A stretch of 64,000 nucleotides of DNA from Desulfobacca acetoxidans DSM 11109 (GTDB taxonomy: Bacteria > Desulfobacterota > Desulfobaccia > Desulfobaccales > Desulfobaccaceae), in the NCBI RefSeq assembly GCF_000195295.1, contig NC_015388.1, positions 1,488,001 through 1,552,000 of the forward strand. Direction: 5' to 3'. Shown one piece after another: positions 6,114-24,657 of this stretch (within the stretch, counting starts at the first letter, position 1; every line of letters begins with the position of its first letter). The notes under the pieces were generated by a model that saw nothing but the letters and a program-made list of their open reading frames with translations, had not been told where the DNA came from and did not search any database. Position numbers and translations under genes: made by a program.

Positions 6114-6315
6114 GAGGTCCACCAGGAGAAATCAATCGGCTGCAATGCAAGCAATGCCGGCCCTCATGCCAATGTGACGATATTTAACCTTTAGGTGAGA
6201 TTTCTGCTTGATTATGATAGCATATGGACGGTAAAGATTTCAACGGCTATCAAAAACTCCGGCGCAAGCCCTTAAATGGAAAATGCAAAATTGACCGGCA
6301 GGTCAGGAGTGCACT

Positions 6316-7152
6316 ATGTCAGAAATAGACATTATTCAGGCTATTGAACTGGCCATCTCACATGAACTGGAAGCTCGGCGGTCTTATCTCGAACTGAGCG
6401 ATCAGGCCGATGATTTGGAGTTGAAGAGGTTACTGCAGGAGATTGCCCAGGAAGAAGCCGGGCATGAGGCCTCCTTGCGCAGCCGGCTGCGTCTGTATCA
6501 GGAAAAACACCTTCTGCGCGATACTATTTCCCGTTATGTCAGCCCCAACGTCTGCGAGGAGATCTTAAAAAACCCTCAGCTCTTGCAGTTGGGTGGAAAA
6601 CGCCAGCGGGTGACAGTACTCTTTGCCGATATCTGGGGCTTTACCAGCATGTCGGAAAAATTAACGCCGGAGACCGTGGTGGAGATGCTTAACCACTTTT
6701 TCACTGCCATGGTTGATATTGTCTTTGAGCATGAGGGCACCCTGGACAAATTTATCGGGGACAATATCATGGCCGTTTTTGGCACCCCTTTGGAGATTGC
6801 CCAACCGGCCTTAAAAGCCGCGCGCTGTGCCCTGGCAATGCATCGGCGGCTGCGGCAGATGCAAACTGATCTGTGCCAGATCAAGCGCATCGGCATCGGC
6901 ATCAACACGGGGGAGGTCATCGCTGGCAATATCGGCTCCCATCGCCATATGGACTTTACCGTCATCGGCGATGTGGTCAACATTGCCGCCAGACTGGAGA
7001 GCCTGACCCGAGAACTGGACGCCGATATTATTATCGGACCTGAAACCTATCAGGAGATTGCTCCGTATTGCCGCCTGGAGCCCTGCGCCCCGGTTGTCCT
7101 GCGAGGCCGCAGCGAACCGTTGCTAACCTATCGGCTGTTGGGCGAAGTCTAA
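6316..7152 (+). CDS. Class III nucleotide cyclase with N-terminal half-rubrerythrin domain
   Basis: Residues 1-58 form two helices with ferritin/rubrerythrin-type di-iron ligands: Glu17 in ISHELEARRSY and Glu47/His50 in EEAGHE. After the usual linker (SRYVSPNVCEEILKNP), residues 98-275 are a class III cyclase. It has metal ligands Asp105 (FADIWGFT) and Asp149 (KFIGDN), adenine-selecting Lys145 and Asp219 (VIGD), and transition-state Asn222 and Arg226 (NIAARLE). All catalytic residues are present, and Lys plus Asp favour ATP over GTP. No membrane segment is seen, so it is cytosolic. It is flanked by hldE (divergent) and a convergent DUF3786 gene, so it is monocistronic. An iron, oxygen or peroxide sensor controlling cAMP is my inference. 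Confidence 0.85.
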   Translation: MSEIDIIQAIELAISHELEARRSYLELSDQADDLELKRLLQEIAQEEAGHEASLRSRLRLYQEKHLLRDTISRYVSPNVCEEILKNPQLLQLGGKRQRVTVLFADIWGFTSMSEKLTPETVVEMLNHFFTAMVDIVFEHEGTLDKFIGDNIMAVFGTPLEIAQPALKAARCALAMHRRLRQMQTDLCQIKRIGIGINTGEVIAGNIGSHRHMDFTVIGDVVNIAARLESLTRELDADIIIGPETYQEIAPYCRLEPCAPVVLRGRSEPLLTYRLLGEV

Positions 7153-7177: not shown

Positions 7178-8047
7178 CTACACGGCAAAACCATGTTTGA
7201 AGGTAAGCTTCTTGATCATCTGTGCCAGTCCGACACCCAGGGTGAAGACCGAATCCGTACCGAGATTCCGGTCGGCGGTTTCATCAAAAAATACCTTGAG
7301 GCCGGATTCCAGGCCGTCTTCCGGCAACCAATAGCAGATCAGGATAGGAACCTTGGGGAGCGGGTATAAGACCACAGAAATATCGGACTCAAATTGCTGT
7401 GCCACCTGCCTGCCGCTGAAAAGCTGAATAATATTGTCAAAGAGTTCGGTATAGCTATCGGCCACCCGTTTTAAAGGCTCTTCGCATTGCCGTTGAAAAA
7501 GTGGATATCGTTCCCGGCCATTGCTCAACTCGCGCAGCGATACCCACTTATGCGCCAGCGGAAGCCCCTGTCCGTGGAGGATATAGTTGAGAAACGGCAC
7601 GGCAATCCAGGGATTGATGTGAATATCGGCGCTCAGATTTCCCCGCACATCGACACTAAAGTCTTTGCCGAGAACCTTTATAGTCAGTCGGTTATCCGAG
7701 AAGCTGCCTCCGGTTCCGGCGGTGGCGGCGGCGAGATCGAGGCGGGCTACCTCAGCCTTCAACCCTTCCAGGTATTCTATACCCGGATCAAAGGGAGGAC
7801 GGGTTTCGATTTCTTCCGAAACCTTCTCAGCAATGTCTTTGGCCAACCGGGGGCATTCGTTGAGCTTTCTCTGATCCTGAAAGACCGCCCGGGCAAAAGC
7901 GAGGCAGGTTTTTTCACCACACTTTCTGCAGTTCGATTTGTCCAGCAACTGCAATATTTCTAAGACATTTTTGGGTTTGGAGTTCAAGGCTTCCTCTTTT
8001 ATGGCGGGCAACAGTTCAGTCTTCCGAGGCTTTAGGTAGGTTGCCAA
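7178..8047 (-). CDS. Fe-S and DUF3786 domain protein
   Basis: The 289-residue protein starts with a four-Cys cluster motif, C40-x2-C43-x4-C48-x16-C65 (NCRKCGEKTCLAFARAVF). This is the small Fe-S domain also found in corrinoid/acetyl-CoA pathway proteins and RnfB-type proteins. The remainder (about residues 105-285) matches the DUF3786 type, with conserved patches INPWIAVPFLNYILHGQG and PLPKVPILICYWLP. Such proteins occur in anaerobes with C1/acetyl-CoA metabolism, but their reaction is unknown. It is cytosolic, with no signal peptide. It stands alone, converging on the cyclase gene. Confidence 0.8.
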   Translation of the reverse strand: MATYLKPRKTELLPAIKEEALNSKPKNVLEILQLLDKSNCRKCGEKTCLAFARAVFQDQRKLNECPRLAKDIAEKVSEEIETRPPFDPGIEYLEGLKAEVARLDLAAATAGTGGSFSDNRLTIKVLGKDFSVDVRGNLSADIHINPWIAVPFLNYILHGQGLPLAHKWVSLRELSNGRERYPLFQRQCEEPLKRVADSYTELFDNIIQLFSGRQVAQQFESDISVVLYPLPKVPILICYWLPEDGLESGLKVFFDETADRNLGTDSVFTLGVGLAQMIKKLTFKHGFAV

Positions 8048-23973: not shown

Positions 23974-24657
23974 ATGAGTGTTCTGTCCCACATCGCTGCC
24001 ATCCCGCTGTTCAGTAATCTCTCGGCAACCCAGTTGCAGGATCTGGCCCTGATCGTCATCGATCAAACCTACAATCGAGGGCAGATCATCTTTATGGAGG
24101 GAGATGAGGGTAAAGGTTTATTTGTCCTGATCAGCGGTAAGGTGAAGGTTTACAAATTTTCTCCCGAGGGCAGAGAACAGATCATACATATTTTCGGACC
24201 GGGCGAACCGTTTGCCGAGGCACCGGTCTTCGCCGGTCAACGCTTCCCGGCCAATGCCGAGGCCCTGGAGGAGAGCCGCATCTTCTTTTTCCCCCGGACC
24301 AGATTTTTGGAGCTCATCCGGCGGCACCCCTCTCTGGCTATGAATATGCTTGCTGTTTTATCTAAAAGGCTCTATCAGTTGGCGGCTTTAATAGAGGATT
24401 TATCTTTAAAAGAAGTGTCCGGGCGACTGGCGGCCTACGTCCTCTTTCAGAGCGATCAGAAACAGGGAGCGACCGAATATGAGTTGGACATCTCCAAGGG
24501 TCAGCTTGCCGGCCTGCTGGGTTCCAGCCCCGAGACCCTCTCCCGCGTCCTCGGCAGGATGGCGCGGGAAGGTCTGATTGAAAGCAAAGGACCTATGATC
24601 ACGATCCTCAATAAAGCGGGACTACGGCAACTGGCAGTGGGAACCAGGCGGTTATAA
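23974..24657 (+). CDS. Crp/Fnr-family regulator, HcpR-like
   Basis: The 227-residue protein has a cyclic-nucleotide-binding fold (YNRGQIIFMEGDEGKGLFVL, ISGKVKVYKFSPEGREQIIH), a dimer helix (LLAVLSKRLYQLAALIEDL approximately) and a C-terminal helix-turn-helix (ISKGQLAGLLGSSPETLSRV, then LGRMAREGLI). The recognition helix SSPETLSRVL has Glu and Arg as in FNR, matching the TTGA half-site. There is no Cys, so it is not a [4Fe-4S] FNR. Proteins next to hcp of this type sense NO through haem (HcpR). GGAGG lies upstream of ATG 23974. Confidence 0.88.
   Translation: MSVLSHIAAIPLFSNLSATQLQDLALIVIDQTYNRGQIIFMEGDEGKGLFVLISGKVKVYKFSPEGREQIIHIFGPGEPFAEAPVFAGQRFPANAEALEESRIFFFPRTRFLELIRRHPSLAMNMLAVLSKRLYQLAALIEDLSLKEVSGRLAAYVLFQSDQKQGATEYELDISKGQLAGLLGSSPETLSRVLGRMAREGLIESKGPMITILNKAGLRQLAVGTRRL

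Follow-up and report, generated by a model that had tools for sequence, protein, structure and literature searches.

What does a short ferritin-like hairpin do at the N terminus of a class III nucleotide cyclase? The question is raised by a gene in the complete, 3.28-Mb genome of Desulfobacca acetoxidans DSM 11109, located in the 64,000-nucleotide stretch of contig NC_015388.1 analyzed here (positions 1,488,001 to 1,552,000, forward strand; hereafter, the window). Its reading frame starts with ATG, is open throughout, and encodes a product in which one helical hairpin runs directly, with no linker in between, into a class III cyclase domain that is complete.

A half-ferritin hairpin at the N terminus of a cyclase

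The gene and the secondary structure of the hairpin are laid out as follows.

6305–6309, plus strand: AGGAG, likely ribosome-binding site, 6 nt 5' of the ATG (sequence reading)
6316–7152, plus strand: gene for the half-ferritin hairpin and class III cyclase, 278 aa (open reading frame, Pfam, AlphaFold2, orthologs)
6322–6405, plus strand: helix A of the hairpin, residues 3–30 (AlphaFold2)
6415–6528, plus strand: helix B, residues 34–71, unbroken from the hairpin into the transducer element (AlphaFold2; no internal indel in 28 sequences)

The Pfam Rubrerythrin profile matches residues 10–66 with 31.6 bits (cut-off, 22.8), and the match spans profile positions 3–61 of 137, that is, a single helix pair. 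A second helix pair that would complete the site within one chain is absent, as judged from the profile coverage and from the AlphaFold2 model, which contains one hairpin, and no rubredoxin-type domain was found in the protein with Pfam. Residues 97–274 match Guanylate_cyc (PF00211) with 97.9 bits (cut-off, 21.9). The Desulfobacca genome encodes seven related class III cyclases, among which only the 6316–7152 product was matched through the hairpin region; three full-length rubrerythrins are encoded in the same organism.

The protein was modeled as a single chain with AlphaFold2, given an alignment of 28 sequences as input, and the hairpin was also modeled alone. Confidence is high within the hairpin (pLDDT >90; overall pTM, 0.81) and falls to a pLDDT of ~82 over residues 61–70. 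The preliminary description of this DNA had confined the hairpin to residues 1–58; the single helix pair is borne out, whereas the second helix extends past residue 58 to about residue 71, into the cyclase transducer element.

The hairpin was compared with known sequences and structures. Its sequence profile matches 2fzf, EncFtn 5n5e, and EncB 7s5k in the PDB, and the EncB and encapsulin-ferritin families of NCBIfam are matched weakly (1.2e-6 and 1.7e-5), with scores far under their cut-offs. The top Foldseek matches of the hairpin model are EncFtn, EncB, EncC, and 2fzf, with a probability of 1.00 but E values of 0.02 or worse, and no Foldseek match reached E < 0.001. With VIA-align, EncB (Z, 9.6) is tied with unrelated hairpins such as those of Cep57 and ING4 (Z, 9–10), helical hairpins being generic. 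Because unrelated hairpins score equally, the case rests on the sequence and the ligands more than on the fold.

The catalytic domain has the residues of a predicted adenylate cyclase

The enzymatic part of the protein was compared with solved class III cyclases.

6514–6597, plus strand: cyclase transducer element, residues 67–94 (RDTISRYVSP...GG) (aligned to 6fht and Cya2; motif from PMC5995499)
6604–7137, plus strand: class III cyclase catalytic domain, residues 97–274 (Pfam PF00211, 97.9 bits; Foldseek matches 6fht, 3r5g, and 2w01)
6628–6630, plus strand: Asp105, catalytic metal ligand (invariant; alignments)
6748–6762, plus strand: Lys145 (ATP selecting) to Asp149 (second catalytic metal ligand) (alignment to 6fht and Cya2)
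6958–6993, plus strand: Thr215 (purine selecting, class IIIb), with Asn222 and Arg226 (transition state) (alignment to CyaB 3r5g; conservation)

The catalytic set had been described as complete, and indeed Asp105, Lys145, Asp149, Thr215, Asn222, and Arg226 are all present and invariant, the last three in each of the 27 aligned sequences that extend to those positions. In the alignments, Lys145 pairs with a lysine of the adenylate cyclase construct 6fht and with a glutamate of the guanylyl cyclase Cya2, and Thr215 pairs with a threonine of CyaB (3r5g). On the strength of these pairings, ATP is the predicted substrate and cAMP, hence, the predicted product. Within the transducer element, -SRY- (residues 72–74) is the counterpart of the FGRY motif.

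The hairpin is conserved throughout the order

Orthologs of the hairpin cyclase were found in 27 of the 28 other searched genomes of the order Desulfobaccales, with whole-protein identities of 60–89%, and in none of the sampled genomes of the phylum outside the order. Recurrence of the fusion, with its hairpin and ligands, across these genomes shows that the observation is not due to chance. A pattern scan of 84,980 species genomes returned 26 loci; the pattern reaches close relatives only. No plasmid matches were found. An apparent occurrence of the fusion outside the order (L055 in genome G137, contig C294) was rejected: its flanking genes, a DUF3786-FeS gene and a DeoC aldolase gene, the latter 87–92% identical to Desulfobacca members, are Desulfobacca genes, so that either the contig is misplaced or the bin is Desulfobacca. 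The contig is assigned to another family, and the bin is probably contaminated or misassigned.

The residues that would bind a metal, and the segment that follows them, stand out in the alignment of 28 proteins.

6364–6366, plus strand: Glu17, predicted iron ligand, equivalent to EncFtn Glu32 (invariant, n = 28; also in histidine kinase hairpins)
6385–6387, plus strand: Tyr24, equivalent to EncFtn Tyr39 (invariant, n = 28; also in histidine kinase hairpins)
6454–6456, plus strand: Glu47 of ExxH, predicted iron ligand, equivalent to EncFtn Glu62 (invariant, n = 28; kinase hairpins)
6463–6465, plus strand: His50 of ExxH, predicted iron ligand, equivalent to EncFtn His65 (invariant, n = 28; kinase hairpins)
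6475–6498, plus strand: LRSRLRLY, residues 54–61, eight invariant residues in a row, proposed coupling segment (alignment)

Glu17, Glu47, and His50 had been named as the ligands of an N-terminal half-ferritin hairpin, which is what the alignment supports, with Tyr24 as a further member of the set. All four are invariant in 28/28 proteins, an invariance that is in part an effect of the high conservation across the whole hairpin: the mean pairwise identity is 81% for residues 9–61, compared with 71% for the cyclase core. Residues 62–76 vary more than residues 54–61, and no indels occur between the hairpin and the transducer element. Judged from the alignment, the higher identity of the hairpin, its invariant ligands and block, and the lack of indels indicate that the constraint on the hairpin is at least as strong as that on the enzyme.

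Encapsulated ferritins provide a precedent for a site built by two chains

In the encapsulated ferritin (EncFtn) of Rhodospirillum rubrum, two irons are held between Glu32, Tyr39, Glu62, and His65 from two chains, which pair as an antiparallel four-helix bundle with the C terminus of one chain beside the N terminus of the other (PMC5012862). Assembly of EncFtn is driven by Fe(II), and Zn and Co likewise raised it in vitro (PMC5012862). The ligand spacing of the cyclase hairpin, Glu17/Tyr24/Glu47/His50, is identical to that of EncFtn (0/7/30/33), whereas the entry-site residue Glu31 of EncFtn is not conserved, the equivalent position 16 being His or Gln in the cyclase hairpins. The proposal that two hairpins are needed for a full di-iron site thus has a solved structure with the same ligand spacing behind it, and this exact agreement makes the half-site idea much more credible. 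The hairpin probably binds a metal, with iron as the presumed one, and we lean, less firmly, toward a metal site common to two chains.

The same hairpin is found on histidine kinases

Two profile searches for fusions of rubrerythrin to signaling domains were run on ~395 genomes of the phylum. They identified the same hairpin at the N terminus of histidine kinases with HisKA and HATPase domains, which belong to three genera in a different class of the phylum; among the best matches, hairpin cyclases and these kinases were the only rubrerythrin-signaling fusions. The next-ranking matches that were inspected consisted of full-length rubrerythrins, rhodanese fusions, or EncFtn-like proteins.

L115:2119–3153, minus strand: hairpin histidine kinase, all four ligand positions kept
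L111:1547–2569, plus strand: hairpin histidine kinase, all four ligand positions kept
L112:1511–2710, plus strand: hairpin histidine kinase, all four ligand positions kept

The kinase and cyclase hairpins are 33–38% identical and share 14 invariant columns, which include all four ligand positions. The chance that 4 set positions fall within 14 of 63 columns is ~2 in 1,000, on the assumption that columns are exchangeable, which is not strictly so for related sequences. In the kinases, the hairpin is followed by a Gly/Pro-containing stretch, whereas in the cyclases the helix continues straight.

These comparisons bear on two readings in which the hairpin would not be a switch. According to the first, it is a metal-free structural element for dimerization or scaffolding, and the ligand-like residues are relics. 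Helical hairpins are common dimerizers, and the equal Z scores of unrelated hairpins fit this reading; relics would be expected to drift, however, yet the four ligands are invariant in 28 sequences and are kept in the kinase hairpins, where just 14 invariant columns are held in common. Furthermore, buried Glu and His residues are costly in the absence of a metal. We therefore regard a metal-free scaffold as improbable. The second reading, to which we give the same low standing, is that the hairpin oxidizes iron or scavenges peroxide as a protective unit, or senses Zn, Mn, or Co, with no O2 or redox switch involved. Rubrerythrins are peroxidases, EncFtn is a ferroxidase, and the response of EncFtn assembly to Zn and Co also speaks for this possibility. 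Conversely, the protein has no rubredoxin-type electron donor domain, the organism has its three full-length rubrerythrins for such tasks, and the direct helical link to a signaling enzyme, together with the hairpins on histidine kinases, points to input rather than catalysis.

Proposed pairing of hairpins and the geometry of the cyclase dimer

In the mechanism that we favor, an input role for a metal-binding hairpin, each chain would contribute Glu17, Tyr24, Glu47, and His50, and face-to-face pairing of two chains would create the site for two irons. The hairpin pair would be stabilized by metal loading and by oxidation of the metal with O2 or peroxide, and this pairing would in turn shift the two catalytic domains and change the cAMP output. 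Pairing would move the catalytic domains because helix B is unbroken through LRSRLRLY into the transducer element. In a phytochrome-cyclase fusion, a linker helix carries the action of the sensor to the transducer element, which has an FGRY-type motif (PMC5995499). Control of the cyclase by metal or redox state, including the direction in which it would act, is advanced as a tentative proposal.

The preliminary description had suggested that the two hairpins could meet at the interface of the cyclase dimer. A site made by two chains agrees with the EncFtn precedent, whereas its location within a single dimer meets a geometric difficulty: in an idealized helix model, the residue-71 ends would lie ~68 Å apart if the hairpins of that dimer paired canonically, as in EncFtn, compared with 10–14 Å for parallel helices. 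Antiparallel pairing of the EncFtn type, combined with the entry of the helix into the cyclase without a linker, conflicts with a class III cyclase dimer that needs the residue-71 ends together. This conflict leaves three options: the hairpins would pair between dimers, helix B would be broken once past the invariant block, or the site would be parallel and noncanonical.

In the latter two, the di-iron site would form between the hairpins of a single dimer and sit just above the transducer element, either canonical, with the helix broken near residues 61–66, or parallel. Class III cyclases act as dimers and their sensors normally couple via paired linker helices; both arrangements would bring the two sets of ligands to a common level, and the more variable residues 62–76, along with the lower pLDDT at residues 61–70, would permit a hinge. 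These points are set against the antiparallel orientation of EncFtn chains, with the wide separation of the chain ends that a continuous helix imposes, and against the parallel site in particular, since no parallel bundle with a ferritin-like site is known to us. An intradimer sensor is accordingly considered unlikely. We instead favor, with modest confidence, pairing between dimers over canonical pairing inside one dimer; the hairpins of neighboring cyclase dimers would then join into an iron-driven higher assembly.

Genomic context and a possible tie to sulfate respiration

In a comparison of ortholog neighborhoods, the neighbors of the window cyclase gene were not found near its orthologs. 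The cyclase gene has a DUF3786 neighbor, also encoding an FeS domain, in the window (7178–8047, minus strand) and on the probably misassigned contig (L055:1417–2274, minus strand), and in a sister genus a DUF3786 gene lies upstream of the cyclase (L045:8422–9147, plus strand). Also in the sister genus, the frame of a TrmO-like tRNA methyltransferase overlaps the cyclase gene at its end (L045:10325–10798, plus strand, identified with Pfam; L030:10280–10753, plus strand), an overlap that suggests an operon of the two genes.

In the sister family (L028–L054), a conserved protein of ~409 residues is encoded by the next same-strand gene downstream of the cyclase in 19/19 informative loci. It is ATP sulfurylase (sat) in the one case tested, and several others carry the motifs of this enzyme; by sequence reading, APS reductase- and Qmo-like genes appear after sat, forming an apparent sat-apr-qmo cluster. 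Between the cyclase gene and sat, eight of the nine sister-family loci that were parsed have a promoter-like site (TTGACA-17-TAnnnT) and, after it, a TGTGAnnnnnnTCAC palindrome.

L031, L032, L035, L040, L041, L042, L046, and L054: gaps with the promoter-like site and the TGTGAnnnnnnTCAC palindrome

TGTGAnnnnnnTCAC is the HcpR/CRP consensus reported 5' of sat in Desulfovibrio (PMC545781). This context hints at a tie of the hairpin cyclase to sulfate respiration. A direct route from the cyclase through cAMP-CRP to sat was considered and rejected: the consensus is also known for HcpR (PMC545781), sat has its own promoter-like site and, in the Desulfobacca genome of the window, is located elsewhere, away from the hairpin cyclase, and none of the six cNMP-domain proteins of Desulfobacca pairs a CRP-type DNA-binding domain with the classical cAMP-binding motif, as read by eye.

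Two other genes encode proteins of related types. The window contains a CRP/FNR-type regulator nearest to DNR (23974–24657, plus strand) that lacks the classical cAMP-binding motif and is perhaps a gas or redox regulator. One unusual protein, encoded at L121:1357–2865 (plus strand), combines a cNMP-binding domain with rhodanese and MauE/DoxX membrane domains; this protein, with that of L123, is a plausible cAMP receptor in its genome.

Relation to known systems and implications

The closest known counterparts of the hairpin are the EncFtn proteins (R. rubrum Rru_A0973, 5da5; Pyrococcus furiosus, 5n5e; Myxococcus xanthus EncB and EncC), which share the two-helix chain, ExxH, and the Glu/Tyr/Glu/His spacing, are its top Foldseek matches, and take two chains to make a di-iron site. 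EncFtn, however, is an encapsulin iron store, stand-alone or fused to the shell, with a third helix and a targeting peptide, whereas the hairpin chain described here continues into a cyclase. Rubrerythrins (PF02915; 2fzf, sulerythrin) share the E...Y...ExxH motifs, and the hairpin scores above their Pfam cut-off, but it corresponds to one of their two helix pairs and has no rubredoxin domain. CyaB (3r5g), CyaC, Cya2, bPAC/OaPAC, and PaaC (6fht) agree with the present cyclase in catalytic residues, in fold, and in the transducer element; their sensors are of the light, PAS/GAF, or phytochrome type, and none is ferritin-like. In the designed Due Ferri (DF1) proteins, two helix-loop-helix chains likewise hold one di-iron site in common, but these proteins are man-made and have no output domain. 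A functional parallel is the hemerythrin-diguanylate cyclase of Vibrio cholerae (Schaller et al. 2012, cited in PMC9388753), a nucleotide cyclase that likewise carries a sensor of the non-heme di-iron type; in this protein, the site is His-rich and complete in one chain, the fold is different, and the output domain is GGDEF.

As the preliminary description had supposed, no characterized cyclase with a half-rubrerythrin sensor was found among the open-licence PMC papers searched, nor was any description of a hairpin-cyclase or hairpin-kinase fusion. The predicted input domain of the protein is of a type new to class III cyclases. The explanation as a whole, a class III adenylate cyclase of the IIIb type, located in the cytoplasm and equipped with an EncFtn-type half-ferritin input domain, in which metal-driven pairing alters cAMP output, appears to us evenly poised between right and wrong. 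A broader proposal, which we hold more loosely, is that the half-ferritin hairpin may be a general signaling input module of class III cyclases and, in another class, of histidine kinases. Iron would bind only where two chains come together, with the metal-driven assembly itself serving as the signal, in the cyclase either by joining catalytic dimers or by re-registering the transducer helix.

If the explanation is correct, this enzyme would be, as far as the searched literature shows, the first nucleotide cyclase found to be gated by a metal site split between two chains, and through it labile iron or oxygen would act directly on cAMP in anaerobic sulfate reducers. Such a cyclase would represent a natural case of iron-dependent chemical dimerization and an undescribed way to sense iron or oxygen. 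The hairpin cyclase would also be a testable case for the recruitment of ferritin-like hairpins from storage or detoxification to signaling.
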